From Saprospiraceae bacterium (lineage in GTDB: Bacteria > Bacteroidota > Bacteroidia > Chitinophagales > Saprospiraceae), in NCBI GenBank assembly GCA_020627705.1, contig JAHDGJ010000010.1, positions 1 to 64,000 on the forward strand: a stretch of 64,000 bases of DNA, in the 5' to 3' direction. The notes under the pieces were generated by a model, which was given only the letters and a program-made list of their open reading frames with translations, ran no database searches and was not told the origin of the DNA. Shown piece by piece: positions 13,851-39,242 of the stretch. Both the position numbers and the translations under genes were made by a program. The first letter of the stretch is position 1; the number at the start of each line of letters is the position of its first letter.

Positions 13851-13939
13851 CTTTGTTTAATAACCTTACTCAATCTTAAACGCTGTAGAAGTTCAATATT
13901 CATGCCATATGAAATTTTTATTATATGATACCAATAAAA

Positions 13940-13967: not shown

Positions 13968-14001
13968 AGTTCTAGGCTTTACGCCTTAGATTTTGGCCTT
14001 A

Positions 14002-24358: not shown

Positions 24359-24382
24359 AAGCTCTTCATTCATCCACAAGAT

Positions 24383-24447
24383 TGATCAGGATCACATGCT
24401 AGGGTGACCGCGGTCATAGAAACACCTGCTTTATCATATAATCTTTG
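24383..24447 (+). promoter_or_regulatory. Island promoter P1: tandem FNR-like boxes plus -7 element
   Basis: Distal box TGAT-CAGG-ATCA (24383-24394, centre 24388.5). Proximal box TGAC-CGCG-GTCA (24405-24416, centre 24410.5), exactly 22 bp on. ATCTTTG ends at 24447, 36.5 bp from the proximal centre. The gene start is 24 bp further at 24471. The geometry is shared with five other promoters in the window. Confidence 0.8.
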
Positions 24448-24470
24448 AAGTATACTTTAAAATTATAGAT

Positions 24471-24704
24471 ATGAAAATGTATGATGCTTCTTTTGATACG
24501 ATATTTTTGAGATTCAATTTAATGATGGCAGTGGTGGTTGTTCCATTCGTTTTGGATATACCCGTTGTGGCCATTTTGGCTTTGCCAATTTTCTTGTCAT
24601 GTATGTTTGGGATTAGATTTTTCCCAAAAAATGCTTTTGACAAACCAAGCATTACAGTCTATCCAGATCTTAGTAATGATACGATGGGCAGAAAGGCCGC
24701 ATGA
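24471..24704 (+). CDS. Small two-segment membrane protein (77 residues)
   Basis: Residues about 14-50 form a hydrophobic hairpin (FNLMMAVVVVPFVLDIP and VVAILALPIFLSCMFGI). A short soluble tail containing FFPKNAFDKPSITVYPDL follows. It is not a recognised family. The case for a real gene is its promoter (P1 at 24383-24447) with the same tandem-box layout as the CBS, Hsp20 and USP genes of the island, plus a sensible 24-bp leader. It ends one base before the convergent response-regulator gene. Confidence 0.65.
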   Translation: MKMYDASFDTIFLRFNLMMAVVVVPFVLDIPVVAILALPIFLSCMFGIRFFPKNAFDKPSITVYPDLSNDTMGRKAA

Positions 24705-24705
24705 T

Positions 24706-25767
24706 TTATGCTATCAAGTCTTTTAGTTCTTCTAAGTCTTCGATTACTATTGAATTCGACTGAAGCTGGATAAGTCCTTCTGCTTTAAAATCTGATAATG
24801 TTCGAATCAAGGTCTCCTTCGCAGTACCAGCGGTAGTAGCAAGATCCTCTCTTGATACCGTAATGTTTAAGCTATTGCCGCTGGTTTCTTTAGCGCCTAA
24901 ATTTGCAAAAGAAACAAGTGCGTTGGCCACTTTTTTGCGCACTGAACTGTATGCCATGTCAATAAGTTTCTGTTCTGTCTGGATTGTTTTGTTTGCAATC
25001 ATTTCTATAAACTTGGCAGCAAAGTCTTTATTATTAAAAAGCAATATTTTAAAATCTTCTTCAGGAATTAGTCGAAGGCTAGTATCTGTGACGCACGCTG
25101 CACTTGAAGAATATTTTTCTCCAGTTAGTAGTGGGAAATACCCAAAAAACTCACCTGCTTTTAGCAATTGTGTGGTCAACACTTTGCCATATTCATTGGT
25201 CTGAAAGAGTTTCACCTCCCCTTCTATAATATAATACAACCATCTGGCTTTTTGCCCTTCCCCATAAATCTCATCTTTGGTATTATAGCTTCGCAATTCT
25301 CTATCCAAAGAAAGGTTTTCTAATTCTTTTTGTGCCTTGGCCTCAGAGAAAAAATGTTGCAGTCCATCCTCTGACGAAGTAAAATCTGAGGCAAGCTTTT
25401 CTGATTTTTTAAGACGAAGTTCTACCGCCTCCAAAAGCTCAACATCATCGTAGGGTTTAGTCAGGTAGTCATCTGCTCCTAATCCCATACCTTTCCTAAA
25501 ATCTGTTTTTTCGGCCTTTGCCGTTAAAAAGATAAAGGGTATGTGATTAAGCTTTGCGTTTTTGTTCAAAACTTTGAGCACCCCAAACCCATCCATCTCT
25601 GGCATCATCACATCACAAATGATAAGATTAGGTAAAAAATCTAGTGCCTTTTTAACACCCAGTCTGCCATTTTCAGCAGAATCCACTTCGTAGTCAGACA
25701 ACTCTAAAAGTTCTACGAGATTTTCTCTTACCTCTAGATTATCCTCAATTACCAATATCTTTTTCAT
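24706..25767 (-). CDS. Response regulator with Crp/FNR-type output (receiver-cNMP-HTH_Crp)
   Basis: 353 residues. The receiver domain (1-120) has acidic D9, phospho-acceptor D52 in IICDVMMPEMDG, T82 and K104 (LTKPYDD). A cyclic-nucleotide-binding-like beta roll follows (about 145-255: EIYGEGQKARWLYYIIEGEVKLFQ). A Crp winged helix (about 290-345) has recognition helix KETLIR; E318 and R322 correspond to the Crp/FNR residues that read TGA half-sites. No FNR-type N-terminal cysteine cluster is seen, so sensing should come through phosphorylation by the kinase 11 bp upstream. It is the best local candidate for binding the TGAY-N4-RTCA boxes of the island (inference). Confidence 0.93.
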   Translation of the reverse strand: MKKILVIEDNLEVRENLVELLELSDYEVDSAENGRLGVKKALDFLPNLIICDVMMPEMDGFGVLKVLNKNAKLNHIPFIFLTAKAEKTDFRKGMGLGADDYLTKPYDDVELLEAVELRLKKSEKLASDFTSSEDGLQHFFSEAKAQKELENLSLDRELRSYNTKDEIYGEGQKARWLYYIIEGEVKLFQTNEYGKVLTTQLLKAGEFFGYFPLLTGEKYSSSAACVTDTSLRLIPEEDFKILLFNNKDFAAKFIEMIANKTIQTEQKLIDMAYSSVRKKVANALVSFANLGAKETSGNSLNITVSREDLATTAGTAKETLIRTLSDFKAEGLIQLQSNSIVIEDLEELKDLIA

Positions 25768-25778
25768 TTCCAGTTTTT

Positions 25779-27422
25779 TTATTCTACTTCCAATTTTAAA
25801 CTAAATATACTTCCCTCCCCTTCAGAACTTGTAAAGCTCAATTGTGCCCCTAGAAGTATGGAATAATTCTTCACAATATTTAAGCCTAAGCCTGTGCCCT
25901 GAATGTTTTCAACATTAGACGCTCTATAAAATCTCGAAAACAAATGTTTTTGATCTTCCTTCGGAATACCAATACCCTGATCAATAATTTCAAAAATCAA
26001 GGAGCTATCTTCTTCTCGTATCCTACAAATAACTGTATCATCTTTTCCACTATACTTTATTCCATTTGACAATAAGTTTAATAAGATGTTGTGTAAAATT
26101 TTAGGGTCCGAATGAATCGTATCATAACTTGTATTTACCTCACTCACTACATCCTGTCCTTCTTTTAACAAGCCAGAAACTTCTTCAACAATACCTTCGA
26201 CAAAAGGGACCAAATCAACAGCCTCCTTATTTACTTCGATCTTACCTTCTTCTATTTTGCTGAGAGATAAAAAATCATTAAGAATGTTGGTTAGATTAGA
26301 TACCGACGACTTGATACGGCCAATATGTTTTTCTCTTTGAACCTGCTGTGACTCCTTTTCGTACCTCTTTAACAAATTGGCAGAGGATAGAATTGTACTC
26401 AGTGGTGTTCTGAATTCATGAGAGGCCATAGAAACAAATCGAGATTTCAATTCGTTTAGTTCTTTTTCTTTTTCCAAAGAAATAACGAGTTGCTTTTCCT
26501 GGTCCTCCAGTTTTCTATTTAGAGACAAAAGCTGATTGATGGTAGATTCGAGTTCTTCAGTCCGATTAAATACTTTTCTTTCTAAGTCATCATTAAGGAG
26601 TTTTAAATCGGATTCAACCTTTTGTATTTTTAAAATTTTTTCTTCCAATTCCAGCTCGTATTGCTTAAGAGGTGTAATGTCCTGAATGTAGCCAAGTATA
26701 GAGACAACCTGTTTGTTTTGATCTAATATGACTTCTCTTTTCCCACTCAAATGTCTTTCTTTTCCTTTTGCGTCTTTAATCTTAAAAGTAATTGCCTCAG
26801 CAGATTTGGTAACCAATTGTTCTTCAAAGGACTTAATCATTTGTTGACGGTCTTCTGGAACAATAAATTTTTGAATCTCAGACAACCTAATCAACTTGTT
26901 TGCGTGTTGACTTTCATCCATTCCAAATATATGAATGGCTTCCTTTGATAGTTTTACATGTCGCTCCGGAAGAATTATCTGAAAACTTCCAATATGGGCC
27001 AAACTCTGCGTCTCTTCGAGGCTATTCTGACTGTCCAAAATATCAGACAGCATTTTTTTTCTGCTGGTATCATCAGAGACAAAACCTATAGCAAACATTT
27101 CGTTGTTAACCATTGTATGGCTTAAACTAATCGCTACAGAAAATGTAGAACCATCCTTTTTTACTCCAAACAATTCTTCATGCGTTCCCATGGCACGAGG
27201 TCGAGGATTTTTTAAATATCCATCTCGATGGTGCACATGTGCTTTTTTATACTTTTTTGGTAAAAGCAGTTCTATGGTCTCACCAACAAGTTCTTCTTTT
27301 GAGTATCCAAAAAGATTTTCAAGATAAGGATTGGATTGTACGATTTCTCCTTTTCTATTGACTACGATTATACCAATAGTCGCTTCACTAAAAATAGACT
27401 TAAATACTACAGCTTCTTGCAT
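25779..27422 (-). CDS. PAS-domain sensor histidine kinase
   Basis: 547 residues. PAS domain 1 covers about 5-120 (GIIVVNRKGEIVQSNPYLENLFGYS), a second PAS/PAC about 130-265 (LGYIQDITPLKQYE), then a coiled coil (about 265-325). HisKA has the phospho-His in MASHEFRTPLS near residue 335. HATPase_c has the N box NILLNLLSNGIKYSG (about 450), DQGIGIP (about 484) and GTGLGLNIVKN (about 510). It has no transmembrane segment, so it is a cytoplasmic sensor. It forms an operon with the Crp-type response regulator and is very probably its cognate kinase. A bound PAS cofactor is possible but cannot be read from sequence. Its own promoter does not show the island boxes in the right position. Confidence 0.93.
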   Translation of the reverse strand: MQEAVVFKSIFSEATIGIIVVNRKGEIVQSNPYLENLFGYSKEELVGETIELLLPKKYKKAHVHHRDGYLKNPRPRAMGTHEELFGVKKDGSTFSVAISLSHTMVNNEMFAIGFVSDDTSRKKMLSDILDSQNSLEETQSLAHIGSFQIILPERHVKLSKEAIHIFGMDESQHANKLIRLSEIQKFIVPEDRQQMIKSFEEQLVTKSAEAITFKIKDAKGKERHLSGKREVILDQNKQVVSILGYIQDITPLKQYELELEEKILKIQKVESDLKLLNDDLERKVFNRTEELESTINQLLSLNRKLEDQEKQLVISLEKEKELNELKSRFVSMASHEFRTPLSTILSSANLLKRYEKESQQVQREKHIGRIKSSVSNLTNILNDFLSLSKIEEGKIEVNKEAVDLVPFVEGIVEEVSGLLKEGQDVVSEVNTSYDTIHSDPKILHNILLNLLSNGIKYSGKDDTVICRIREEDSSLIFEIIDQGIGIPKEDQKHLFSRFYRASNVENIQGTGLGLNIVKNYSILLGAQLSFTSSEGEGSIFSLKLEVE

Positions 27423-27473
27423 TCCAATGATTATATGATGAATCTACACTTATTCCAATCCCAAATTGCAAAT

Positions 27474-27538
27474 TGATCAAAATCTTTTTCTACAATGATA
27501 TTAGTCATGTCGCTTGCTTTAAAAATGGTCTCTTTTTG
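27474..27538 (+). promoter_or_regulatory. Island promoter P2: tandem boxes before the 27551 lipoprotein
   Basis: Distal box TGAT-CAAA-ATCT (27474-27485, one mismatch). Proximal box TGAT-ATTA-GTCA (27496-27507). Centres are 22 bp apart, and the G of TTTTTG is at 27538, 36.5 bp from the proximal centre. The start codon follows after 12 bp. Confidence 0.75.
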
Positions 27539-27550
27539 AAATAAAAAGAT

Positions 27551-28123: not shown

Positions 28124-28226
28124 ATATAAAAATAGAGCTGTAGCGATAGCCTACTTGCTTTGGTTGGTAATTCTTGTTTGTATTATCATCATTTATTGGG
28201 AATTCACATTGGCTCACTCAATATGA
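28107..28226 (+). CDS. 39-residue single-membrane-span protein (candidate)
   Basis: ATG at 28107, TGA at 28224. The start overlaps the end of the preceding lipoprotein gene by 17 bases, a typical translationally coupled arrangement. The product has a basic N-terminus (MKTNSKYKNR), then a continuous hydrophobic stretch (AIAYLLWLVILVCIIIIYW) and a short polar end. Its stop codon lies inside the distal box of promoter P3. No homologue is recognised; confidence rests on its composition and coupling. Confidence 0.5.
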   Translation: MKTNSKYKNRAVAIAYLLWLVILVCIIIIYWEFTLAHSI

Positions 28227-28288
28227 CAAAGATCATTAGAAGCATTGATCCCTATCATTTTGTGACAATTCAAGTCGTAAGATCTTTA
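28224..28288 (+). promoter_or_regulatory. Island promoter P3: tandem boxes before the CBS-USP operon
   Basis: Distal box TGAC-AAAG-ATCA (28224-28235) and proximal box TGAT-CCCT-ATCA (28246-28257, a TTGAT-N4-ATCAT FNR-like site) are 22 bp apart. ATCTTTA ends at 28288, 36.5 bp from the proximal centre. The start codon is 21 bp downstream. Confidence 0.82.
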
Positions 28289-28308
28289 AATCATCAAAAA
28301 AAAGAATT

Positions 28309-28749
28309 ATGAATTTACTTGCTCCTGTCAGCACCATCATGACAAAAAACATCATTAGCGTTGATCGCTATGCAAGCCTAAAATTAGTAAAGGACAGTAT
28401 GGGAAAACACAAATTTCATCACATGCCTGTGACTGAAGGCGGAGAAATTATTGGGTTGATAAGCAAGTCTGATCTATTGTGGTTTGAACAAGGATTTAAA
28501 AACGGGAGAGACAAATTTGATGACTACAAACTTAAATCTTACAAGGCGTTTCAGATCATGACAAAGAAGTTGGCTACAATGCAACACGATGAAAAAATAA
28601 ATGTCGCATTGGAGATTTTTAATGCCAATCTATTTCATGCGATCCCAATATTGAACGGTGAAAAACTTGTAGGGATATTAACGACCTACGACATAATAAA
28701 AACCTTGTCTGAAAATAAATCTGCCATCAACGAATATTTAAACACATGA
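28309..28749 (+). CDS. CBS-domain pair protein
   Basis: 146 residues made of two CBS motifs and little else. CBS1 runs from STIMTKNIISVDRYASL to IIGLISKSDLLWF. CBS2 runs from AFQIMTKKLATMQHDEKI to LVGILTTYDIIKTL. Stand-alone CBS pairs bind adenine nucleotides or similar ligands and often act as energy sensors. It is the first gene of an operon behind promoter P3, and its stop overlaps the next start (ATGA). It is one of five such proteins within 8 kb; the ligand is unknown. Confidence 0.92.
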   Translation: MNLLAPVSTIMTKNIISVDRYASLKLVKDSMGKHKFHHMPVTEGGEIIGLISKSDLLWFEQGFKNGRDKFDDYKLKSYKAFQIMTKKLATMQHDEKINVALEIFNANLFHAIPILNGEKLVGILTTYDIIKTLSENKSAINEYLNT

Positions 28750-29831
28750 TTACTGTAACCCTATTCGGAAAGCCATCTTATCCCTTTCATTACTTAAAAT
28801 CTGTAGTGAAGGATAAGTTAGAAAAGGCAAAGGTTCATTATAAGATAATTGAGAAAACAGAGCTTAGTGACTTTATGAATCAAAACATTGATCAAATCCC
28901 TGCTCTTCAGTTTGAAAATCAAATAATGTATTTGGATAAAACACACAGTAAAAGTTCGATACAAAGAATGACGAAAACAATTTTAAAAAATGAAAATTTT
29001 GGAAAAATGACAAAAATTATATCACCAGTTGATTATTCTGAAAATTCTAAAAATGCGTTTGAATATGCCTTTGAATTGGGCCAAGATTTAGGCGCTGTCA
29101 ATAAACTTATACATGTGTACAGACCTAGTGCTACAGCAATTGATGAGCATGTATCGGTTTATGTAGAAATGGAAAAAGCGGAAAATAGAAAATTTAAAAA
29201 ATATGTCTCTTCCATTTTTCAAGATAAGACAACGAAGTTAGGTAAAGATCAAATTCTAGATTCCGAGTTTCTTATAGGCCTTCCTGGAGACACTATAATT
29301 GAGTACTCCAATGCGCCTAATCATTTGATAGTAATGGGAACCAAAGGAAATACAGGAATCGCAAAAAGATGGTTTGGTTCGGTCTCAACCAAAGTAGCCA
29401 AAAGCGCACAATGTCCTGTTCTAGTAGTCCCACCGCAAGCGAAATATTCTGGAATAGAAAACATTCTTTATTTGGCCGATGAATTAGATCTGGATGGAGG
29501 AATAGTAGAGATCGTAAAAAAGACCTTCAAAGAAAAAAGACCTAACATCCATGCTGTACATATTGATGATGGAGAGTATTATGATTTCGAAAAATTAAAA
29601 TCGGTTTGGAGTAAGTTTTATTCAAGTGAAAAACTTAAGTATCAATTGTTAAAAGATATTTCTACGGCAGCACTAGAAGAATATATCGAAAAGAATAGCA
29701 TAGGCCTAATTGTTTTGAATCGACGTCAACGAAGTTTTATGGAAAATATATTTCATGAAAGTATGACCAAAAAATTAGTCCTCCATTCCAAAACACCCCT
29801 ACTTATTTACCACGCAAACGATCAAAAATGA
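28746..29831 (+). CDS. Glutaredoxin-like fold fused to universal stress protein domains
   Basis: 361 residues. Residues 1-80 read like a glutaredoxin (TLFGKPSYPFHYLKSV ... IDQIPALQF with the cis-Pro loop). The CxxC positions are replaced by Tyr and His, so the domain should be redox-inactive. A UspA domain follows from residue about 92 (IISPVDYSENSKNAFEYA). Its ATP motif G-x2-G-x9-G-S is complete in GTKGNTGIAKRWFGS. The C-terminal 130 residues form a second, degenerate Usp half (ENILYLADE ... LIVLNRRQRS ... KTPLLIYH). It overlaps both neighbours by 4 bases, which implies translational coupling. Confidence 0.85.
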   Translation: MITVTLFGKPSYPFHYLKSVVKDKLEKAKVHYKIIEKTELSDFMNQNIDQIPALQFENQIMYLDKTHSKSSIQRMTKTILKNENFGKMTKIISPVDYSENSKNAFEYAFELGQDLGAVNKLIHVYRPSATAIDEHVSVYVEMEKAENRKFKKYVSSIFQDKTTKLGKDQILDSEFLIGLPGDTIIEYSNAPNHLIVMGTKGNTGIAKRWFGSVSTKVAKSAQCPVLVVPPQAKYSGIENILYLADELDLDGGIVEIVKKTFKEKRPNIHAVHIDDGEYYDFEKLKSVWSKFYSSEKLKYQLLKDISTAALEEYIEKNSIGLIVLNRRQRSFMENIFHESMTKKLVLHSKTPLLIYHANDQK

Positions 29832-30634
29832 AAAACATCTTAATTCCTATGGATTTTACTCAAGTCGCTTGCAATGCACTTGAGTACGCTTCAAAATTGT
29901 TTGAATTCGAAAAATTGCACATCGTACATACCACCTTTGGTACTTATTTTAATGATGGCAAGTTTGACGAACCTCGAATCGAAAAAAAGCAAATTCTAAA
30001 AACCGAATTGACAAAGGATGTCTTACGCATTCTAAAAGTTGACACCTTACCGGAAAATGTAGAAGTAAAAATTCTTAATGGAGAAACAATCCCTACGTTG
30101 ATTAAATATGCAAAAGAAAACAACATCACTGAGATCGTGATGGGAACGAGAGACAAATACTCTTTGTTCGACAAATGGCTAGGTACAGTTTCTTTGCGGC
30201 TTATAAAAACTACAAATTTGCCCGTCTATCTAATACCACCCAGAGCAAGCTTTAAAGGTTTTAAAAAAGTATTGATTGCCAGTGACGCTCATTTAAATAA
30301 AAGCTCTGCAATATCAGAAATCAAATCTTGGAATGAAACCCACCAAGCATTTTTAGAATTTTTACATATTAATCAGCCCAATCAAAAAGATAAATATGTC
30401 AATCCGTTGGATTTACTTTTTACAGATAGTGAGCCAACCTTTGGATTCGAAATGAAGCAAATTGTAGATACAGACATATCCGGATCTTTATTGGCACTAG
30501 CACATAATGATCATTGCGATTTGATTATCGCGGTGCCGGACAATCAGAATTTTATACAAGGCCTAATGTTTATAAGTATTTCAAAAGATTTAATTCTGAA
30601 AACGGATACGCCATTACTGTTTCTTAAGGGTTAA
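29828..30634 (+). CDS. Tandem universal stress protein (degenerate second half)
   Basis: 268 residues. The first Usp domain opens KNILIPMDFTQVACNALEYA and carries the nucleotide motif as GTRDKYSLFDKWLGT, with Asp replacing the second glycine. The second domain opens FKKVLIASDAHLNKS and lacks the motif. Double-Usp proteins are common in Bacteroidota and usually form intramolecular pseudo-dimers. It is the third gene of the P3 operon, coupled by an ATGA overlap. Confidence 0.88.
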   Translation: MKNILIPMDFTQVACNALEYASKLFEFEKLHIVHTTFGTYFNDGKFDEPRIEKKQILKTELTKDVLRILKVDTLPENVEVKILNGETIPTLIKYAKENNITEIVMGTRDKYSLFDKWLGTVSLRLIKTTNLPVYLIPPRASFKGFKKVLIASDAHLNKSSAISEIKSWNETHQAFLEFLHINQPNQKDKYVNPLDLLFTDSEPTFGFEMKQIVDTDISGSLLALAHNDHCDLIIAVPDNQNFIQGLMFISISKDLILKTDTPLLFLKG

Positions 30635-30676
30635 TCTAACTTATCTTATTCATTTTAAATAATCTAAAGACAAACC

Positions 30677-31477
30677 ATGAAAATTTTATGCCCTGTTGAT
30701 TTCTCTACATCATCAAAGAATGCCACAGCATATGCTTTACAACTAATGCAAAAGTTTACAGGAGAAGAGCTAGTTTTTTTTCACTGCGTAGATTATTTGG
30801 GAAGTTTTGATAAACTAAAAGTAGCAAAAGACATCCTTAAAGAACAAGCCGAAAAGGAAATGGAAAAATTAATATTGGAAACGAATATTGCTTTTCCCAA
30901 TATTAATTGCAAAGGAGATATTTATATTGCTTCACCGAAAGCTCTAATCCCTAAATACACGAAAGAACATGACTTTGATTTCGTGGTCATTGGGTCTACT
31001 GGATTGACAAATCTAAAAAACATTTCAGTAGGATCTGTCGCAGAGACTGTGGCAAGAAATGTCAAAATTCCTGTCTTGATTGTTCCTCCATCAGCATCAT
31101 TTGATCAGGTTGAGGATATTGCTATCGGAATTTCTGAAGATCAACTAGACCTTCCGAATCCTTTTCATTCGATTCAAACACTTTTTGGAAGTAATGAATT
31201 ACATTTCTATCTGGTCTATTTCTTTTCTAAATCTCCTTCAAACAAACTAGATGTCGAAATCCACGATTATATGAAGGGTCTTAATCACAGTATGCATCAA
31301 GTACTAAAAAAAGAATCGATCTCTAAATCCTTAAACCATTTTGCTCAAAACTACCGCATGGATTGGATAGGTATTTTACATAAACATAGAAATTGGTTTT
31401 CTGATTTATTTCATCATTCTATTTTGAGAGAAGAACTATTTAATCTCGAAAAACCAGTGTTGATTTTGGCTAATTAG
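30677..31477 (+). CDS. Tandem universal stress protein
   Basis: 266 residues. The N-terminal Usp domain (KILCPVDFSTSSKNATAYALQL) has an intact ATP-binding signature, GSTGLTNLKNISVGS. The C-terminal half is diverged (VEDIAIGISEDQLDL ... WIGILHKHRNW ... KPVLILAN). It lies 42 bp behind the preceding usp gene without a visible tandem-box promoter, so it is probably the last gene of the P3 operon. A strong terminator follows at 31507. Confidence 0.9.
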   Translation: MKILCPVDFSTSSKNATAYALQLMQKFTGEELVFFHCVDYLGSFDKLKVAKDILKEQAEKEMEKLILETNIAFPNINCKGDIYIASPKALIPKYTKEHDFDFVVIGSTGLTNLKNISVGSVAETVARNVKIPVLIVPPSASFDQVEDIAIGISEDQLDLPNPFHSIQTLFGSNELHFYLVYFFSKSPSNKLDVEIHDYMKGLNHSMHQVLKKESISKSLNHFAQNYRMDWIGILHKHRNWFSDLFHHSILREELFNLEKPVLILAN

Positions 31478-31506
31478 AGACCTAGTTTTTACCCCTTTAT
31501 GTTAAA

Positions 31507-31540
31507 GGTTCTAATCACTTTTGATTAGAGCCTTTTTTTT
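31507..31540 (+). terminator. Terminator of the CBS-USP operon
   Basis: 11-bp stem GGTTCTAATCA / TGATTAGAGCC (one G-T pair) with a CTTT loop, followed by eight T. The T run abuts the distal box of the Hsp20 promoter. Confidence 0.92.
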
Positions 31541-31605
31541 TGATGAAAATCAATGATGATGATGATTGAGATCATTTCATCCTTTTTCGTTTGACCCCAT
31601 CTTTG
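31541..31605 (+). promoter_or_regulatory. Island promoter P4: tandem boxes before hsp20
   Basis: Distal box TTGAT-GAAA-ATCAA (core 31541-31552) is a perfect FNR-type palindrome. Proximal box TGAT-TGAG-ATCA spans 31563-31574. Centres are 22 bp apart. CTTTG ends at 31605, 36.5 bp from the proximal centre. This places the transcript start downstream of an in-frame ATG-less extension and supports the start at 31639. Confidence 0.85.
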
Positions 31606-31638
31606 AAACATATTAATTCACTAAAAAATTATTTCATT

Positions 31639-32076
31639 ATGGCACTCACTGATTTAACTAGAGTAAATGTCTTTCCAAGTCTAAATCCTTTTTGGGATGA
31701 TTTCTTAAACAATTCTTTTGAGCCTATTCGCTCAATGGGAACTTTCAAATCAGTTCCCTCTGCAAACATTTCCGAAAGCGAAAAAGAATACTCTATAGAG
31801 TTAGCAGCTCCTGGATTAACAAAAAATGACTTCAAGGTTGATGTCGAAAATGGCATGTTATCAATAAGCTCTGAATTAGAAGAAAGCAAAGAAGAAAATG
31901 AAAAAAACTATTCGCGAAAAGAATATAGTTACACTTCCTTTAATAGAAGTTTTCGATTACCAGATAATGCAAACGAGGATAAGATATATGCTCGATATGA
32001 AGATGGGGTTTTAACCATCACAATTGAAAAAGAGGCTGCAAAGGAGGATACAAAAAAATCCGTTTCTATTGATTAA
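31639..32076 (+). CDS. Small heat shock protein, Hsp20 family
   Basis: 145 residues from the ATG at 31639; a longer frame opening at 31591 would begin upstream of the predicted transcript start. The alpha-crystallin domain runs about 40-135: SESEKEYSIELAAPGLTKNDF, SRKEYSYTSFNRSFRLP and the typical ARYEDGVLTITIEK. The C-terminus ends KKSVSID. Such proteins are ATP-independent holdases that bind unfolding proteins in the cytoplasm. It is preceded by P4 and followed by a 20-bp palindrome and two CBS genes. Confidence 0.95.
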   Translation: MALTDLTRVNVFPSLNPFWDDFLNNSFEPIRSMGTFKSVPSANISESEKEYSIELAAPGLTKNDFKVDVENGMLSISSELEESKEENEKNYSRKEYSYTSFNRSFRLPDNANEDKIYARYEDGVLTITIEKEAAKEDTKKSVSID

Positions 32077-32086
32077 AACATATTAG

Positions 32087-32106
32087 GCAGGGGTAATTAC
32101 CCCTGC
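32087..32106. other. Perfect 20-bp palindrome between hsp20 and the CBS genes
   Basis: The sequence GCAGGGGTAA followed by its exact reverse complement lies 11 bp after the hsp20 stop. It would form a GC-rich hairpin in the transcript, but no T run follows on either strand. A role as partial terminator, 3'-end protector or protein site is possible. Confidence 0.7.
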
Positions 32107-32127
32107 AATAAAACTAAAATTAATATC

Positions 32128-32583
32128 ATGATAAAATATTTAAACATCGAAGCAAAAAGACTTATGAGCGATTCATTAATCAGCGTAATTCCTGATACCA
32201 TTGTAACAGAAGTAGATGAAATATTCAAGTCAAATTCTTTTCACCATATACCAGTAATTAATGAGGACAAGGTTTGTGTTGGTATCATAAGTAAAATGGA
32301 CTATTGCCAATTGCAACATCACTTCACCCGAATTGATGGGGAAAGAGATAAAGAGAATAATAGATTTTTTGCTAGTCTTTTGGCCTCGGATATTATGACC
32401 CCAAATCCTGTAACCGTTACAGATGATATTTTGCTTTCGGATCTAATCAAAATTTTCAAGAATCAAAACATTCGATCTGTCATTGTTACCCGGAAAAATG
32501 AATGCGTTGGAATAATCACTCCGATGGATCTAATAGCATATCTCGAAGAGGTACTTATTAATTATCAAAAAGCAATCGCCTAA
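32128..32583 (+). CDS. CBS-domain pair protein
   Basis: 151 residues. CBS1: KRLMSDSLISVIPDTIV to CVGIISKMDYCQL. CBS2: ASDIMTPNPVTVTDDIL to CVGIITPMDLIAYL. Two CBS motifs make one Bateman module without an effector domain. It overlaps the next CBS gene by one base. It lies 51 bp after hsp20 with only the palindrome between, so it is probably expressed from P4, perhaps at reduced level. Confidence 0.92.
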   Translation: MIKYLNIEAKRLMSDSLISVIPDTIVTEVDEIFKSNSFHHIPVINEDKVCVGIISKMDYCQLQHHFTRIDGERDKENNRFFASLLASDIMTPNPVTVTDDILLSDLIKIFKNQNIRSVIVTRKNECVGIITPMDLIAYLEEVLINYQKAIA

Positions 32584-33029
32584 TGAAAAATATATCACAT
32601 TACATGACTAGGGAAGTAGAATGCGTGTCAAAAGATATGTGTCTAAAAAATGTTCTTAAAACATTTAAAAGCAAAAATGTTTCTCATCTGATTGTAACTA
32701 ATACAAATGAAGAGCCAATAGGCATGTTATCAATCAATGACATCAATAAAAATCTGTTGTCAATTCTAAGAGAGACCACTGGAAAATATTATACGGAGTT
32801 GGAGCTCAATGGTACAGAGGCGGAAGACTATATGAGTAAAAATTTAGTGCTCGTACAAGAGGCGGATTCAGTAGAATTGGCAGCAGAGATATTCCTACAA
32901 GGTAAGTTCCACGCCTTGCCCGTGGTTAAAAGAAACAAACTTACTGGAATCATTACAAATACTGATCTATTAAAAGCCTACTATGAAAAAGCCAACAATA
33001 TCCAAGAGCTATCACTTACAAAATCTTAA
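32583..33029 (+). CDS. CBS-domain pair protein
   Basis: 148 residues with CBS1 (ISHYMTREVECVSKDMCL to PIGMLSINDINKNL) and CBS2 (AEDYMSKNLVLVQEADSV to LTGIITNTDLLKAYY). Its start overlaps the stop of the preceding CBS gene, and the following metal-binding protein starts 47 bases inside its 3' end. Together these imply a tightly coupled operon. The ligand is unknown. Confidence 0.9.
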   Translation: MKNISHYMTREVECVSKDMCLKNVLKTFKSKNVSHLIVTNTNEEPIGMLSINDINKNLLSILRETTGKYYTELELNGTEAEDYMSKNLVLVQEADSVELAAEIFLQGKFHALPVVKRNKLTGIITNTDLLKAYYEKANNIQELSLTKS

Positions 33030-33261
33030 ATGTGGATCATGTCAGCGCAGAATTGAGCAAGTCCTCATCAAAATTGATGGAATTGAAAATATAAAATTCG
33101 CAGGTAACACGATAATCTTAGATATATCCGAGAAGTTTAACGATATCCAAGTCAAAAAAACACTTTCAAAACTTGGCTATCCAGCAGCAGGTACATCTAA
33201 CAGTTTGATCCAAAAAAGCAAATCATTTATTAGCTGCGCAATAGGAAAAACGCATTCATAA
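32983..33261 (+). CDS. Heavy-metal-associated (HMA) domain protein
   Basis: 92 residues. YHLQNLKCGSCQRRIEQVL matches the HMA metal-binding loop, with cysteines in CGSC instead of the classical MxCxxC start. The ferredoxin-like fold continues with IDGIENIKFAGNTIILDI and KKTLSKLGYPA. Such domains bind Cu(I) or similar soft metals. The ATG lies 47 bases inside the preceding CBS gene and no later ATG is in frame, so the long overlap seems real. Confidence 0.8.
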   Translation: MKKPTISKSYHLQNLKCGSCQRRIEQVLIKIDGIENIKFAGNTIILDISEKFNDIQVKKTLSKLGYPAAGTSNSLIQKSKSFISCAIGKTHS

Positions 33262-33282
33262 TATTTAAAACTAAAAGCTTAA

Positions 33283-33675
33283 ATGATGATAACACCATCT
33301 ATCATACTAATTATTTGGGGCTCATTACTCATCCTATCTTCGCTTTTCTTTCTGCAGTATTATGAATTATGCCTACAATGCATTTCGATCCTTAAAAAAA
33401 ACAAAACGCGGGAATCCATTTATATGGTTGCTCAAACCGTAGGACTTTTTCAGATTTATATGGCATTTTCGATGCCAGATGAATACTACTCTGCCCTACT
33501 TACGACAGGACTATTTTTCGTTTTTGGTGGCATTTCCATATTTGCATTCTTTCCGCTTGTCACCAATCATCTAAACAAAATATTTAGTTCCAATACTGGA
33601 TACTTTTTATTATTTGGAATTCTTTTTTACGGTCTGTACTTACTAAATCTAGTTCTCAAAATTGCTAGGATATGA
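33283..33675 (+). CDS. Four-helix membrane protein of the island
   Basis: 130 residues with four hydrophobic segments (IILIIWGSLLILSSLFFLQYY; VAQTVGLFQIYMAF; ALLTTGLFFVFGGISIFAFF; GYFLLFGILFYGLYLLNLVL). It is an inner-membrane protein of unknown family. Its stop overlaps the next ATG (ATGA), so it is translated with the following secreted protein gene. Position in the island suggests a stress-related role; nothing in the sequence gives a mechanism. Confidence 0.75.
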   Translation: MMITPSIILIIWGSLLILSSLFFLQYYELCLQCISILKKNKTRESIYMVAQTVGLFQIYMAFSMPDEYYSALLTTGLFFVFGGISIFAFFPLVTNHLNKIFSSNTGYFLLFGILFYGLYLLNLVLKIARI

Positions 33676-34397
33676 AAAACTTAACTACCATAATATTGAT
33701 TTTACTCAGTTCTAATCCAATGCTATTCCTGACCTCACAAGAGGGTTTTGTTTATAAAGCATTAGACCAAGCTGTCATAACACTTTTGCAAAATGCTCAT
33801 TCAAGCAGCATGATAAGTAAAACAGCTCAACTCGATGAAATCATCTTTCAGCTAGAAAACACAAACGACGATCTTATTAATAAACCAACTCCGCATTTTG
33901 ACAAATCACAATATTATAAATACTGCAAAGGCCTAACTCATTTACTTGCTCGTTACATCAAAAAAAACAATGCGGATAAAATAGAATTTTTTTGCTGGGA
34001 ATTGTTGATGGAAAACAATCAATTGAGACAGTGCATGGGCATATCCAATTATCCTCTTGATCCTTTTTTAGAAACTTATGAAGCCATGAAAAAATTGGAC
34101 AAAACAATTAACGATCCGATGATGGACCTTCTGGAATGGAATGAATTTGAAGACGTAATTGAAGACTTTATTAATTCGTGGCAAGTGTATGATTGTTTTG
34201 ATGATAAAAATTTTAAAATATACTTCCCAAAATTTGATCAAGCAAAACATGACACGCTCAAAGGATACCTAAATTTCAAAATGGACCATTTTCTTCTTGT
34301 TTTAAATGAAGAAAACCAAGGTGCCTTTAAAGACCCATCGTACGAAATAATTGAAATTCTGAATTCTATTCTTCATCTATATCACTTACCGTTATGA
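33672..34397 (+). CDS. Unrecognised helical protein with N-terminal signal or anchor
   Basis: 241 residues. The N-terminus MKNLTTIILILLSSNPMLFL is a signal peptide or membrane anchor. The remainder is predicted largely helical and acidic (DQAVITLLQNAHSSS, EFFCWELLMENNQLRQC, WNEFEDVIEDFINSWQVYDCFDD). It has no motif I can name. It is coupled by ATGA overlaps to the membrane protein before it and the CinA-like gene after it. Confidence 0.7.
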   Translation: MKNLTTIILILLSSNPMLFLTSQEGFVYKALDQAVITLLQNAHSSSMISKTAQLDEIIFQLENTNDDLINKPTPHFDKSQYYKYCKGLTHLLARYIKKNNADKIEFFCWELLMENNQLRQCMGISNYPLDPFLETYEAMKKLDKTINDPMMDLLEWNEFEDVIEDFINSWQVYDCFDDKNFKIYFPKFDQAKHDTLKGYLNFKMDHFLLVLNEENQGAFKDPSYEIIEILNSILHLYHLPL

Positions 34398-35035
34398 GTC
34401 AATTTCCATCTATATCAGATTTCAAGTTAAGACTCGATAATTCAGAATACAAAACCTGGAAAAATTTAAAAACTGAATCTTATCGAGTATCATCCCATTT
34501 GATGGAAAACAATTTGAGTATTTCTATCGCCGAAAGCATGACTGGAGGAAGCTTGATGGGTAACTTAACCAAGAATCCAGGAATATCGAAAATATTTAAA
34601 GGTGGAATAGTTTGCTACCAGCCTGATATTAAAATAAAACTATTGGGTGTACCGCAAGATAAAATTGACCTGTACAGTTGTGAATCTAACGAGATGAGCA
34701 GCATACTTGCGTATCAAATCAAAACAATCTTCTCTACAGATGTGGGAATAGGTATAACAGGACTGGCTTCTCCGGGAGCGTTGAGTACTCCCTCAAAACC
34801 TTCAGGGTCTGTCTTTATTTCAATTTATTTTGCTGGGTCTATTTACGAGTTTTCCTATCAACTTAAAGGAAATAGAATACAGATTTTACAAGACTGCTGT
34901 CGGTTGGCTTTATTGGATGCTAAACGAGTGGTTTCGGACAACCATTTCAAAACAAGTGCGGCAATCACATCCAAGGACATAAATTCGAAAGGAATCGTTT
35001 TGTATCGAATCGAACAAAATCATTTTCTTCAATGA
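34394..35035 (+). CDS. CinA C-terminal domain protein (PncC-like NMN deamidase family)
   Basis: 213 residues. The core (about 35-185) shows the CinA-C signatures ISIAESMTGGSLMGNL, FKGGIVCYQPDIKIKLLGV and GIGITGLASPGA. In typical members the last reads GITGxAGPGG, so the second glycine-rich position is altered. Family members deamidate nicotinamide mononucleotide in NAD salvage. About 35 additional residues at each end are unusual. It is the last gene before promoter P5 and is coupled to the preceding gene. Confidence 0.85.
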   Translation: MSQFPSISDFKLRLDNSEYKTWKNLKTESYRVSSHLMENNLSISIAESMTGGSLMGNLTKNPGISKIFKGGIVCYQPDIKIKLLGVPQDKIDLYSCESNEMSSILAYQIKTIFSTDVGIGITGLASPGALSTPSKPSGSVFISIYFAGSIYEFSYQLKGNRIQILQDCCRLALLDAKRVVSDNHFKTSAAITSKDINSKGIVLYRIEQNHFLQ

Positions 35036-35075
35036 CTTTGATCATTTTAGATCTTCCTTAAGGCATCGATCTTAG
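35011..35075 (+). promoter_or_regulatory. Island promoter P5: box pair before the second CBS cluster
   Basis: The proximal box TGAC-TTTG-ATCA (35033-35044) overlaps the end of the CinA-like gene. The distal site at the 22-bp offset is only a half-site (CGAA-CAAA-ATCA, 35011-35022). ATCTTAG ends at 35075, 36.5 bp from the proximal centre. It supports translation from ATG 35091 rather than the upstream TTG at 35076. Confidence 0.72.
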
Positions 35076-35090
35076 TTGAAAATTAAGGAT

Positions 35091-35510
35091 ATGAAACCTA
35101 TTGCGATTACAGAAATAATGACTAAAAAACCTTTATCGGTTCATCCAAAAGAAGAGATTTCTTTTGCCGTGCAGTTGATGAAACAAAATGCGATTCATCA
35201 TCTTCCTATAACCGTTGGTCAAAAAGTAGTAGGAATAGTTAGCATGGGTGATTTACTCTTTTTACAAAATTGTGTCAATCAAAACAAGGACATGTTTTTA
35301 AAAGGGACAAATTTTCAACTAAGTGCTTTGGATGAAATCATGACCAAAAACCCTATCTGTTTAACTAACAATTCTTTTATTCAAGATGCAGTTTTAGAAA
35401 TGCAAGAATCAAGGATTAATTGCCTACCCATAGTGGACGAAAATAAAAATTTGGTGGGTATTGTAACAACACATGATCTCATTCAATTCTTAGGAAATCT
35501 ATATAATTAA
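35091..35510 (+). CDS. CBS-domain pair protein
   Basis: 139 residues from ATG 35091. CBS1: ITEIMTKKPLSVHPKEEI to VVGIVSMGDLLFLQ. CBS2: LDEIMTKNPICLTNNSFI to LVGIVTTHDLIQFL. Nearly the entire chain is a Bateman module. It is the first gene behind promoter P5, and the next CBS gene starts 4 bp after its stop. Confidence 0.93.
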   Translation: MKPIAITEIMTKKPLSVHPKEEISFAVQLMKQNAIHHLPITVGQKVVGIVSMGDLLFLQNCVNQNKDMFLKGTNFQLSALDEIMTKNPICLTNNSFIQDAVLEMQESRINCLPIVDENKNLVGIVTTHDLIQFLGNLYN

Positions 35511-35514
35511 TCAA

Positions 35515-35910
35515 ATGCTAGATATAAAAAAATCAATTCAGACCATTATGTCTGAAGATCTTATTACTGTCTTGGAAGGTGCCCAACTAAAACATTTTGA
35601 ATACAAATTAACTCCTCGTAAAATTCATCATTTGATTGTAGAAAATTTACAAGGAGAATTAGTAGGGATCATAAGTACGGAAGACATTGCCAAAGCTACA
35701 TCATGGATAGTTGAGGATAAAATAACCACCCAACATATAATGAGTAAGGATTTAATTACTCTTCCGCATACAGCAAGCATCAAAGATGTCCTATTAAAAC
35801 TATTGGAAAACAAACATCGAGCAATCCCGATCATAAAAAATAAAAAAGCTGTTGGGATCGTAACAGCATATGACTTCTTATATTCCTTTTACTTAGATAA
35901 AATAGCTTAA
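35515..35910 (+). CDS. CBS-domain pair protein
   Basis: 131 residues. CBS1 (IQTIMSEDLITVLEGAQL to LVGIISTEDIAKAT) and CBS2 (TQHIMSKDLITLPHTASI to AVGIVTAYDFLYSF). It is the fifth CBS-pair protein of the island. The sequences differ enough that they are old paralogues. It lies two bases before the next gene's start, in the P5 operon. Confidence 0.93.
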   Translation: MLDIKKSIQTIMSEDLITVLEGAQLKHFEYKLTPRKIHHLIVENLQGELVGIISTEDIAKATSWIVEDKITTQHIMSKDLITLPHTASIKDVLLKLLENKHRAIPIIKNKKAVGIVTAYDFLYSFYLDKIA

Positions 35911-35912
35911 CG

Positions 35913-36697: not shown

Positions 36698-36728
36698 CAT
36701 AACTTTGACTTACTCTTTGATTTTTCAA

Positions 36729-36959
36729 TTATTCTATCAAATCGCTTTCGAACTTCTTAGTTGACCTAAATAAACCCAAAACTGGAAAATAGCTCCCAAC
36801 AAGAATTCCAGAGATAAATAAATAGTATGTCACATCAATCATGAAAAATGGTGTGACTAAACCAAGAATCCAAAAGCAACCCGATAAGAGTGCTAATACA
36901 AATTGAGAATTAACCCTAAATAACATTATCGCTTTGAGTTTCTTTTCAATCATTATCAA
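36729..36959 (-). CDS. Small two-span membrane protein (76 residues)
   Basis: It has two hydrophobic segments (FVLALLSGCFWILGLVTPFFMI and YYLFISGILVGSYFPVLGLF) between charged ends. The start overlaps the stop of the upstream lipoprotein gene (ATGA on the minus strand). It is the last gene of the five-gene minus-strand operon behind P6; its family is not recognised. Confidence 0.75.
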   Translation of the reverse strand: MIMIEKKLKAIMLFRVNSQFVLALLSGCFWILGLVTPFFMIDVTYYLFISGILVGSYFPVLGLFRSTKKFESDLIE

Positions 36960-37648
36960 AATATTACTTGTTCTATTGGACGTTCTTCAAAGTTCATTGG
37001 GTAAATTTTAAACACCTCTCCCTTAATTCTATGATTAAAGATGTGATCAAATTGTTCTGGATTAGGATTCACAATCCGTTGAATGGTACCATCACGACTT
37101 TCCCTTTCTTTATAATTATCTATAACATTTTCGATAAAATACTCCTCTGGAACATCTAACATTTCCCACTCCAAACTGCCATCTTCTTGTGGAGAAATCA
37201 CATGAACTATCCAATTTTGCTGGGCATTGAGATAATTTAAAAACAACCGTCCATCCTTCATTTTTGCAGAATGAACTGGATCAAAACAAAACAACGTATC
37301 TACTTCATAATACTGCACCAATATTTTGCCATCATCCAATCTCTCTATGGGAAAGCATTTCTTCAAATCATAGCTATAGATGCCACCCTCTTCTATTTCA
37401 CAGTTTTTCAAAAATTTCAATTCGCTCTCTTCAACAATGTCCTGATAATACAATTCTTGAATAATGTGACTTACACTGACTTTAAAAACGCCGTCATCCA
37501 ATGACCAAATGAAAACACCTTGAAACTCATTTGGTAATTGATCCAGAATTTTTGCATTTGGGGGAACTGGCTCCTCAAAGACTATTGCGGGTTCGCAAGA
37601 AAAAATACCTAGGAAACTAAGGAAACAAATTTGAACATACTTTATCAT
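36956..37648 (-). CDS. Putative lipoprotein of the P6 operon
   Basis: 230 residues. The signal MIKYVQICFLSFLGIFSCEP ends with a lipobox Cys at position 18. The mature part is mostly beta (GVFIWSLDDGVFKVSVSHII, GIYSYDLKKCFPIERLDDG, LFLNYLNAQQNWIVHVIS). No known domain is recognised. It lies 7 bp after the usp gene on the same strand and overlaps the next small membrane gene. Confidence 0.78.
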   Translation of the reverse strand: MIKYVQICFLSFLGIFSCEPAIVFEEPVPPNAKILDQLPNEFQGVFIWSLDDGVFKVSVSHIIQELYYQDIVEESELKFLKNCEIEEGGIYSYDLKKCFPIERLDDGKILVQYYEVDTLFCFDPVHSAKMKDGRLFLNYLNAQQNWIVHVISPQEDGSLEWEMLDVPEEYFIENVIDNYKERESRDGTIQRIVNPNPEQFDHIFNHRIKGEVFKIYPMNFEERPIEQVIF

Positions 37649-37655
37649 GCTTATT

Positions 37656-38486
37656 TCATTTTAGATTAATAGATAACACTGGGACTTCTGAATGATTTAC
37701 AATAGACTCGACATTACTACCCGTAAAAATCCTTCGAATGTTTCCTTTTTGATGGTTGGCTATTCCTACTAATGAAACATTTTTTTCGTGAACGAAATGA
37801 CGTACTCCTGCCTCTACAGAATAGTCTGCATAAAAATGCGTTTGTACATTAAAATCATCTGCCAAAGCTTTAAAGTCCTTTAAAGCTTCTTGCATTATAA
37901 AGCGAGGTTGAGTAAAATAAAAGGCAGTATCGACTGCCATAATATGCAGCATATTAACTTTAAAATGGCTTAAAAACTCTAAAAAGTTTTTGAAGGCTGG
38001 TACATCGCTCTTATTTAAACTAGAAACATAAAGCACATTGGAGACATTAAATTCATTTTCATTTTTAACAACCAATACATTGTGCTCAACATTACGTACT
38101 ACTTTTTGAGCATTGGATCCCATAGTCCACTCTCGAAAACCAGAGGCTCCATGTGATCCCATAACAATCAAGTCATAGTCTTCTAATCTTTCAATGGATT
38201 TGATGTTTTCAATGAAGTTTCCTCTTCGAATAATTACATCCGATTCAATCTCTAATTCGTGGTTAGCTTGCTTCAATTTTTCTAATTTATCTTCGATCTC
38301 ATTCACCAAAATATTTACATATCCCTTCATCAACTCAGAATTATTCTTCAATACCTTCTCTAATTCTCCATTTTCAAAACTGTGAAAAAGGTCAACACTG
38401 GAAGAAGATGTGTTAGCAATATTTTGGGCCACTTTGAGCGCATTCAAAGACATACTAGAGAAGTCAATAGGTACTAATATTTTCAT
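37656..38486 (-). CDS. Tandem universal stress protein
   Basis: 276 residues. The first Usp domain (KILVPIDFSSMSLNALKVAQ) has the complete ATP motif GSHGASGFREWTMGS. The second (SNVLYVSSLNKSDVP) has a related but altered loop (GIANHQKGNIRRIFTGSN). It is the third gene of the P6 operon, 10 bp after the HPF-like gene. It is the fourth Usp protein of the island and the only one on the minus strand. Confidence 0.9.
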   Translation of the reverse strand: MKILVPIDFSSMSLNALKVAQNIANTSSSSVDLFHSFENGELEKVLKNNSELMKGYVNILVNEIEDKLEKLKQANHELEIESDVIIRRGNFIENIKSIERLEDYDLIVMGSHGASGFREWTMGSNAQKVVRNVEHNVLVVKNENEFNVSNVLYVSSLNKSDVPAFKNFLEFLSHFKVNMLHIMAVDTAFYFTQPRFIMQEALKDFKALADDFNVQTHFYADYSVEAGVRHFVHEKNVSLVGIANHQKGNIRRIFTGSNVESIVNHSEVPVLSINLK

Positions 38487-38496
38487 GCCACTAGTT

Positions 38497-38793
38497 TTAT
38501 ATATTTTGATAATGCTTCACTCTGTATTTCTCAACTTGCGGTTGGATTTTTCGAATACTATTGTTAAAAGCGATTTTAACATCTTGAGATACAGATGATC
38601 CAAATAAATCTGGTCCGTTTTCAGTATAGGCAAGAAGGCTTACTTCTACCTGATCACTCTTGACCGATTTAAACTTCAATCGTAAAGAATTTATAAATTG
38701 AAACTTGCCAAATTCTTTTTCCAATTTTTCTCTAAAAAAGGAGTCAGAACCTTGTCCTGCAAATTGTCCTTGTGCTTCTATTATTATTTTCAT
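38497..38793 (-). CDS. Short HPF/RaiA-like ribosome hibernation protein
   Basis: 98 residues with the beta-alpha-beta-beta-beta-alpha pattern of short HPF: KIIIEAQGQFAGQGSDSFFREKLEKE, then LRLKFKSVKSDQVEVSLLAYTENGPDLF, then a helix SVSQDVKIAFNNSIRKIQPQVEKY. HPF-type proteins bind the 30S decoding region and promote ribosome dimerisation or inactivation. Coexpression with Usp, CBS and Hsp20 proteins suggests a growth-arrest program. It starts one base after the stop of the previous gene. Confidence 0.8.
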   Translation of the reverse strand: MKIIIEAQGQFAGQGSDSFFREKLEKEFGKFQFINSLRLKFKSVKSDQVEVSLLAYTENGPDLFGSSVSQDVKIAFNNSIRKIQPQVEKYRVKHYQNI

Positions 38794-38794
38794 C

Positions 38795-39157
38795 TTATAT
38801 GTTATTTGAGTTTAATCCTTTCCTGTTTTGTTCTGCTAATGTCCAGTCGTCCGTTGCGGTTGTTTGCAACCACAGATCGTTGGATAACCGTGACACTTGT
38901 ACATTTAAAGAAAATCTTGTTTCAAACTGATTTTCTAACTCTGATACTGTTAAATCACTTGAAAATTCAATCTCATCTTCGACTAACGATGGTGAAATAG
39001 ATCCTAAATTTTGTTGTTGATCCAGAATCAAATCTTCCTTTGGGCTTCCTTGATTAGAGTAATGTGGTTGCTTATAAAAATCCAATTTCAATCCAGGGAA
39101 TTGGGACTGAAATTCCTTTTGAATCTGTTGTAAAGTTGTAATCCTATTTAGCTTCAT
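38795..39157 (-). CDS. Conserved acidic protein of the P6 operon, unknown function
   Basis: 120 residues, no signal peptide. The N-terminal helix (MKLNRITTLQQIQKEFQSQF) is followed by a region with SNQGSPKEDLILDQQQNLG, then a C-terminal part VSELENQFETRFSLNVQVSR ... WLQTTATDDWTLAEQNRKG. The tight junction with the HPF-like gene (one base) suggests the two act together, perhaps with the hibernating ribosome (inference). It is first in the operon behind P6. Confidence 0.75.
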   Translation of the reverse strand: MKLNRITTLQQIQKEFQSQFPGLKLDFYKQPHYSNQGSPKEDLILDQQQNLGSISPSLVEDEIEFSSDLTVSELENQFETRFSLNVQVSRLSNDLWLQTTATDDWTLAEQNRKGLNSNNI

Positions 39158-39177: not shown

Positions 39178-39242
39178 CAAAGGTGATCGATGTCAGACCA
39201 TTATCAGATGACCCCCGTCATCATTAGAATTGATTTTGATCA
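39178..39242 (-). promoter_or_regulatory. Island promoter P6 (minus): tandem boxes before the HPF-USP operon
   Basis: Distal box TGAT-TTTG-ATCA (39231-39242, centre 39236.5) and proximal box TGAC-CCCC-GTCA (39209-39220, centre 39214.5) are 22 bp apart. On the minus strand CTTTG ends at 39178, 36.5 bp from the proximal centre. The ATG of the first gene is 21 bp downstream. Confidence 0.82.

Follow-up and report, generated by a model that had tools for sequence, protein, structure and literature searches.

A receiver-Crp regulator with tandem TGAY-N4-RTCA promoters in a Saprospiraceae genome: a probable two-component counterpart of FNR/FixK

REC-Crp, a fusion of a response-regulator receiver with a Crp-type DNA-binding protein, and the PAS histidine kinase encoded directly upstream of it probably constitute a two-component counterpart of FNR/FixK in a Saprospiraceae bacterium (assembly GCA_020627705.1), a reading to which a probability of about 0.7 is assigned here. 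The two genes lie in a stretch of 64,000 nucleotides (contig JAHDGJ010000010.1, positions 1 to 64,000), hereafter referred to as the window, in an island of stress-protein genes whose promoters carry pairs of TGAY-N4-RTCA palindromes. We infer the phosphorylation, DNA binding and activating role of REC-Crp, and the signal of the system, from sequence comparison. The features of the pair are as follows:

24706..25767, minus strand: REC-Crp response regulator, 353 residues (Pfam, conservation, AlphaFold model, Foldseek)
25420-25758, minus strand: receiver of REC-Crp (Response_reg, residues 4-116, 1.1e-25)
25033-25293, minus strand: cNMP-type roll of REC-Crp (cNMP_binding, residues 159-245, 2.2e-17)
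24715-24933, minus strand: Crp winged helix of REC-Crp (HTH_Crp_2, residues 279-351, 6.1e-15)
24802..24819, minus strand: recognition helix residues KETLIR of REC-Crp, with E318 and R322 (sequence and alignments)
25779..27422, minus strand: PAS-PAS histidine kinase, 547 residues, directly upstream of REC-Crp (Pfam PAS_9, PAS_3, HisKA, HATPase_c)
27237..27239, minus strand: His62 of kinase domain PAS1 (gap-free alignment to the FixL/DosP heme-histidine position)

All three domains of REC-Crp exceed the Pfam cut-offs and the receiver carries the hallmarks of response regulators (phospho-acceptor Asp, acidic pair and Lys). Across an alignment of 19 REC-Crp proteins D9, D52, K104, E318 and R322 do not vary, and the 30 REC-Crp loci read retain all five, which upholds the receiver-Crp fusion with D9, D52, K104 and KETLIR described in a first-pass annotation of the window. 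The AlphaFold model, based on the 19-sequence alignment, has a mean predicted local distance difference test score of 81.8 and a predicted template modelling score of 0.55, with a low-confidence linker at residues 124-134. In a Foldseek search with this model the top 50 PDB folds are all Crp-type, led by GlxR and Mycobacterium tuberculosis CRP (MtbCRP) and including CRP. A comparison by sequence gave 313 PDB matches, and none of the best 60 chains spans both the receiver and the Crp parts. Only two cysteines, C51 and C225, occur in the protein, and REC-Crp therefore lacks the FNR-type cysteine set, as had been noted before. Its Pfam matches include no LuxR-type output domain, the output being HTH_Crp_2. 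Since both the cysteine set and the LuxR output are absent, REC-Crp can be classed neither with FNR nor with FixJ. An iron-sulfur FNR was thus rejected as its identity for want of the cysteines, and so was a cyclic AMP-responsive CRP, since the alignment columns of the cyclic AMP-pocket residues Glu72 and Arg82 of Escherichia coli CRP hold Tyr210 and Tyr219 in REC-Crp.

The PAS-PAS-HisKA-HATPase_c organisation of the upstream gene agrees with the PAS kinase partner proposed in the first-pass annotation. Among 80 named REC-Crp loci (1.39 Mb; the best 80 of 593 confirmed candidates, some from close species and some on short contigs), a kinase adjoins REC-Crp in 72, on the same strand in 71 and upstream in 69. 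The best PDB matches of PAS1 of the window's kinase are FixL and DosP, in alignments shown without gaps, and His62 is aligned with the heme-binding histidine of FixL and DosP. In an alignment of the PAS domains of 73 kinases (72 from the loci and that of the window; 9 of the 73 without a PAS match), His occupies the His62 column in 61 of 64 domains, and several relatives, the closest locus (L073) included, keep Arg in GxGRE alongside this His. As the PAS His position is kept, and the distal Arg is kept in several relatives, heme binding and oxygen sensing by the kinase are plausible.

The window contains 18 exact TGAY-N4-RTCA palindromes, of which 10 fall in the roughly 4.0 kb of intergenic DNA not covered by the listed open reading frames (ORFs). 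They form pairs with a 22-bp period at 24383, 28224, 31541 and 39209 (exact) and at 27474 (one mismatch), so that the TGAY palindromes earlier reported in the flanking promoters are borne out in a sharper form:

24383..24416, no strand: P1 tandem box, exact, 22-bp period (pattern search)
24444..24447, plus strand: P1 TTTG core, ending 31 bp past the proximal box (sequence)
27474..27507, no strand: P2 tandem box, one mismatch, between the kinase and a divergent lipoprotein-like gene (pattern search)
27535..27538, plus strand: P2 TTTG core, directed at the lipoprotein-like gene 27551-28123 (sequence)
28224..28257, no strand: P3 tandem box, exact (pattern search)
28285..28288, plus strand: P3 core, TTTA (sequence)
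31541..31574, no strand: P4 tandem box, exact (pattern search)
31602..31605, plus strand: P4 TTTG core (sequence)
39209..39242, no strand: P5 tandem box, exact (pattern search)
39178..39181, minus strand: P5 TTTG core, leftward (sequence)
39184..39195, no strand: third single box, exact, adjoining the P5 core (pattern search)

The whole assembled genome (3.7 Mb, 98.7% complete) contains four exact 22-bp pairs, every one of them in the island, which supports the earlier suggestion that the regulator and the kinase are embedded in their probable regulon. Allowing one mismatch adds two pairs, at 27474 in the island and at C3:59912 on another contig inside an ORF, and the reversed-pattern control gives 0 pairs in this genome. 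A single box followed by TTTG was listed at 13 places in the genome, four of which are tandem promoters of the island; the control gave 2 forward and 0 reverse.

The geometry of these promoters is sharply defined. In 5 of the 5 island pairs, the distance from the proximal box to the end of TTTG, the core of the Bacteroidota -7 element (P1, P2, P4 and P5), or of TTTA (P3) is exactly 31 bp. In the 80 loci of the relatives, exact pairs occur with a period of 22 bp (28 pairs in 20 loci) or 23 bp (12 pairs in 11 loci), the other periods tested from 12 to 44 giving at most 2 pairs each, and an inner spacer of 4 bp yields 336 single boxes against 75-180 for other spacers from 0 to 11. In the minority of tandem operators with the 23-bp period (L073-L152), the distance to the TTTG core is unchanged. 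Of 146 orientations in the relatives' loci, 49 have a TTTG that ends at +31, and no other offset between 4 and 74 exceeds 4; TTTG or TTTA stands at +31 in some orientation for 81 of the 128 distinct pairs of an enlarged set, and for 31 of 52 pairs from regions of five genomes of the window's family. Among 672 single-box orientations of the 80 loci, TTTG peaks at 31 (75), 53 (70) and 54 (23) over a mean of 6.5; exact pairs feed both the peak at 31 and those at 53/54, and the remainder fits pairs with one degenerate box. With up to two mismatches per pair, 113 promoters are found in 55 of the 80 loci, as compared with 0-4 loci in ten shifted controls, and exact 22-bp pairs are present in 33 of 60 genomes (own genome included), all 60 giving a reversed-pattern count of 0. 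A chance origin of the boxes was rejected, since the reversed-pattern controls were empty and other periods and shifts gave low counts. With the core set at -7, the boxes would lie near -41.5 and -63.5, the class-II and the adjacent activator positions.

In CRP and FNR, Glu and Arg of the recognition helix contact TGA. The four other Crp proteins of this genome read RQTVTT, RQTVTS, RQTVAR and RVVISR where REC-Crp has KETLIR; Glu is replaced by Gln or Val in all four, Arg being kept in RQTVAR and RVVISR. As the other four are without Glu, the two TGA-reading residues come together in REC-Crp alone among the five Crp proteins found here, and reading of the boxes by another Crp protein found in this genome was rejected. 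A sixth, sub-threshold HTH_Crp_2 match (L006, 337 residues) was taken by eye for a GntR-type regulator.

The conservation of the regulator with the boxes, to which the first-pass annotation had looked as a check, was examined across Bacteroidota, and the two co-occur. The numbers of genomes with both, the regulator only, the boxes only and neither are 28/8/5/19 in the 60 genomes (Fisher p 1.8e-5), 22/4/1/10 in the family (2.7e-5), 28/15/4/26 in the 73 genomes of the class (1.1e-5) and 28/15/10/243 in a 296-genome phylum sample (3e-20), all p values ignoring descent. The REC-Crp matches of the 60-genome set are full-length and were sorted by hand. The circuit had been called unusual, a description that does not hold in the class, where REC-Crp was found in 43 of the 73 sampled genomes, as against 0 of the 223 others of the phylum sample. 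Neither the regulator nor exact boxes were found in three congeners of the bacterium, one of them 98% and two 64-73% complete. The G+C content of the island (24359-39769) is 33.9%, against 38.8% to its left and 37.6% to its right within the window; together with the missing regulator and boxes in the congeners, this would fit acquisition as a unit.

The genes under the five promoters are as follows:

24471..24704, plus strand: 77-residue protein, membrane-like by eye, downstream of P1 (ORF; homologue in G017)
27551-28123, plus strand: lipoprotein-like gene (by eye) under P2 (no Pfam match)
28309..31477, plus strand: P3 genes, a CBS protein and three universal stress proteins (Pfam)
31636..35910, plus strand: P4 genes, Hsp20, CBS proteins, CinA and others, with a predicted operon reach (Pfam)
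36956..39157, minus strand: P5 genes, a conserved 120-residue protein, an S30AE/HPF-like protein, a universal stress protein and a lipoprotein-like protein by eye (Pfam)

All four genes with a Usp domain found in the genome sit in the island, and FixO has no match in the genome; the known regulon here is therefore the island. Homologues of several island proteins recur under the same promoter type elsewhere: that of the 77-residue protein (35% identity) in G017, which belongs to another genus, those of the 120-residue protein (50%) and the lipoprotein-like protein (30%) of P5 in other genomes, and CBS-type genes in L073, L074, L075 and L206. The Pfam scan of the P4 genes left out the ORFs 32983-33261 and 33283-33675, and the P4 ORF 33672-34397 has no Pfam match. 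Elsewhere in the window (3674-18486, minus strand) lie ORFs of 3328 and 1494 residues, the second of which resembles a large secreted repeat protein by eye.

The genes under such promoters in the relatives were taken as the longest ORF starting at most 350 bp from the oriented promoter, a few of the entries probably being wrong ORFs. In this way 81 promoters gave 76 genes (three promoters without an ORF, one with an ORF below 60 residues and one gene reached twice), in a set that mixes genomes with REC-Crp, with an FNR-like protein or with both. Among the 25 of 62 families listed, the most frequent are Usp (9), COX1 (8), FixO (8), kinase (7) and CBS (4), followed by metal P-type ATPase and YceI (3 each) and by molybdopterin oxidoreductase, rhodanese, FixG, ScdA, hemerythrin and radical SAM (2 each). 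Of these genes, 30 come from five genomes of the family to which the window belongs; the families listed for them, 25 of 32, include Usp (5), molybdopterin (2) and rhodanese (2), and NosZ-propeller, HypA, the NiFe hydrogenase small subunit, CBS, kinase and others once each.

Within 10 kb of REC-Crp, CcoNO-like genes occur in 22 of the 80 loci, CcoI-like in 21, HemN-like in 10, Ric-like in 4 and any of these in 31, where about 0.3 would be expected for such neighbours at one copy per 4.5 Mb, the counts possibly including paralogues. The names HemN, Ric and CcoI were given from Pfam matches (radical SAM, ScdA/hemerythrin and P-type ATPase, respectively) with recognition by eye. At L145, ccoNO, kinase and Ric genes follow tandem promoters, and the search of its genome yielded no FNR-like protein with the cysteines. 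Across the relatives the predicted targets look microoxic or FNR-like, and not of the dormancy type alone, which corrects the 'dormancy-type' label of the first-pass annotation. In E. coli K-12 (L282), fnr adjoins uspE, and a neighbourhood of FNR and universal stress proteins is therefore not limited to Bacteroidota.

The proposed mechanism would run as follows. The cue sensed by the PAS kinase would most probably be low oxygen or some other redox or respiratory signal, and the kinase would phosphorylate D52 of the receiver; phosphorylated REC-Crp would dimerise and bind the palindromes through its winged helix (E318/R322), with one dimer on each of two neighbouring boxes at a period of 22 or 23 bp. 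Of the two dimers, the proximal one would sit near -41.5 and touch RNA polymerase as a class-II activator, and the distal one would sit near -63.5. The targets would be, in this genome, the island with its four universal stress proteins, CBS proteins, Hsp20 and HPF-like protein and, in other Bacteroidota, also the cbb3 oxidase, CcoI, HemN, Ric and hydrogenase genes that the same promoter type precedes.

Several observations weigh against this reading. The co-occurrence statistics take no account of shared descent, and the REC-Crp searches scored only the top first-look candidates, up to 34 in the 60-genome set and up to 7 in the phylum sample. No exact 22-bp pair is present in 15 of 43 REC-Crp genomes of the phylum sample and 8 of 36 of the 60-genome set, and 25 of the 80 loci are without a promoter at the two-mismatch threshold. 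The P2 core faces away from the kinase and lends no support to autoregulation here. At the column where FixL-type heme PAS domains have their distal Arg, the window's kinase has Glu. COX1 and FixO are absent among the families listed for the own-family genes; this and the lack of a FixO match in the genome mean that the microoxic reading rests on the relatives. In three of eight named REC-Crp genomes, and in G005 of the window's own family, a further protein with Glu and Arg occurs that is FNR-like or another standalone Crp. Finally, genomes that keep the boxes and lack the regulator, which the first-pass annotation had named as evidence against its assignment, were found when that wording is taken literally, at 5 of 33 box genomes in the 60-genome set and 10 of 38 in the phylum sample. 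Two of them, G030 and G050, have boxes with neither REC-Crp nor a cysteine-bearing FNR-like protein found.

Nine of these 15 box-only genomes belong to the class and six lie outside it, and 7 of the 9 in the class carry a standalone FNR-like protein with N-terminal cysteines and the same Glu and Arg, its helix reading GTATE[ST]xIR in G075, G168, G207, G329 and G053 and GTVKETxIR in G040 and G047. This speaks for a DNA code common to two types of regulator and not for a wrong assignment; in this genome the two-component type is the only one found. The boxes of G030 (7 exact pairs; 1040 contigs, 91% complete; one Crp protein reading SREAVSR) may reflect either a fragmented assembly or another reader; G050 is 57% complete. 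Both regulator types occur together in G005, G038, G051 and G056, and 5 of the 8 named REC-Crp genomes searched with an FNR-like protein, that of L145 among them, showed no other Crp protein with both residues (one helix in the genome of L145, that of L295, being unread). In G038 (C4:9902-20597) a cysteine-bearing FNR-like gene lies about 10 kb from the REC-Crp gene, in a genome with 14 exact tandem boxes; in G053 the neighbours of the FNR-like gene are a tandem box and two genes named by eye, one coproporphyrinogen-oxidase-like and the other for a CcoI-like ATPase.

The alternative that survives best concerns the cue, which may be starvation or general redox stress instead of oxygen, the island being a general survival regulon. 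We regard this as a serious possibility that falls clearly short of even odds: the local targets, the missing FixO and the absent distal Arg of the kinase PAS would suit it, but in the relatives such promoters are found ahead of genes for cbb3 oxidase, CcoI, HemN and Ric, the proximal FixL/DosP His position is nearly always kept, and PAS1 has FixL and DosP as its best matches. That REC-Crp binds the boxes but is turned off by phosphorylation, or acts as a repressor whose genes the kinase releases, is unlikely; the third box at the P5 core (39184-39195) is in line with repression, whereas the proximal box stands at one fixed distance, near the class-II activator contact position of -41.5 and not over the core. 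This third box could also make P5 self-limiting. It is likewise unlikely that another Crp/FNR protein reads the boxes and that REC-Crp is a mere neighbour or controls something else. The box genomes without REC-Crp, most of those in the class with an FNR-like protein that has the same residues, and the coexistence of both types in some genomes speak for this; against it stand the missing Glu of this genome's four other Crp proteins, the tracking of REC-Crp by the boxes in the family and the absence of both from the 98%-complete congener.

Beyond the two-component counterpart of FNR/FixK, a more far-reaching proposal is offered tentatively, as slightly less probable than not. REC-Crp and its kinase may represent a class-wide oxygen response in which FixL-FixJ-FixK has collapsed to a heme-PAS kinase that directly phosphorylates a FixK/FNR-like activator, two receiver-coupled dimers being required on the 22/23-bp operator; this system would replace iron-sulfur FNR on the same DNA code and, in the window's lineage, the regulator, the kinase and the detected targets would travel as an island of about 15 kb.

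The bare receiver-Crp domain combination is probably already present in domain databases. No description of a receiver-Crp regulator was found in the openly licensed literature by searches of which several were narrow and one covered its ground only in part, and the passages available from a paper on Campylobacterota (PMC9239204) hold none. Crp/FNR proteins are usually switched by their own bound ligand or cluster. A widespread branch switched through a receiver, if true, would place FNR-type control under a kinase, and two kinds of sensor would then act through a single DNA code. As a ready regulon predictor for these bacteria, the operator-promoter grammar is sharp enough to be of use. How a receiver drives a Crp fold could be tested directly here, and so could the question whether the two regulator types replaced each other on the same promoters.

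Several known systems come close to REC-Crp. It resembles FixL-FixJ-FixK of rhizobia in bringing a PAS kinase, a receiver and a Crp/FNR-type activator into one pathway, in the FixNO-type oxidase, CcoI/FixI-like ATPase and HemN-like genes among the relatives' targets, and in FixL as a best PDB match of PAS1. FixJ (a receiver with a LuxR-type output) and FixK are, however, separate proteins, whereas the receiver is fused to the Crp part here, and the window's PAS is without the distal Arg of FixL. With E. coli FNR and the cysteine-bearing FNR-like proteins of Bacteroidota, REC-Crp shares the recognition-helix Glu and Arg, and the latter proteins accompany the same boxes in most of the class genomes examined that lack REC-Crp; unlike FNR, it has an N-terminal receiver in place of the iron-sulfur cysteine set. 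FNR uses Glu and Arg to recognise palindromes of the TGAT-N4-ATCA type; TGAY-N4-RTCA boxes and the two residues are present here, and a contact between them is predicted. The DosR regulon of mycobacteria contains genes for universal stress, CBS, Hsp20 and HPF-like proteins, and the two-component control of such genes by DosRST is matched by that predicted here; DosR is a LuxR-type regulator with other boxes, in contrast to the Crp-type output of REC-Crp. CRP, GlxR and the Porphyromonas gingivalis Crp-Fnr protein 2gau are the closest in fold and sequence to the C-terminal two thirds of REC-Crp, which differs from them in its added receiver and in the tyrosines at the E. coli cyclic AMP-pocket columns.

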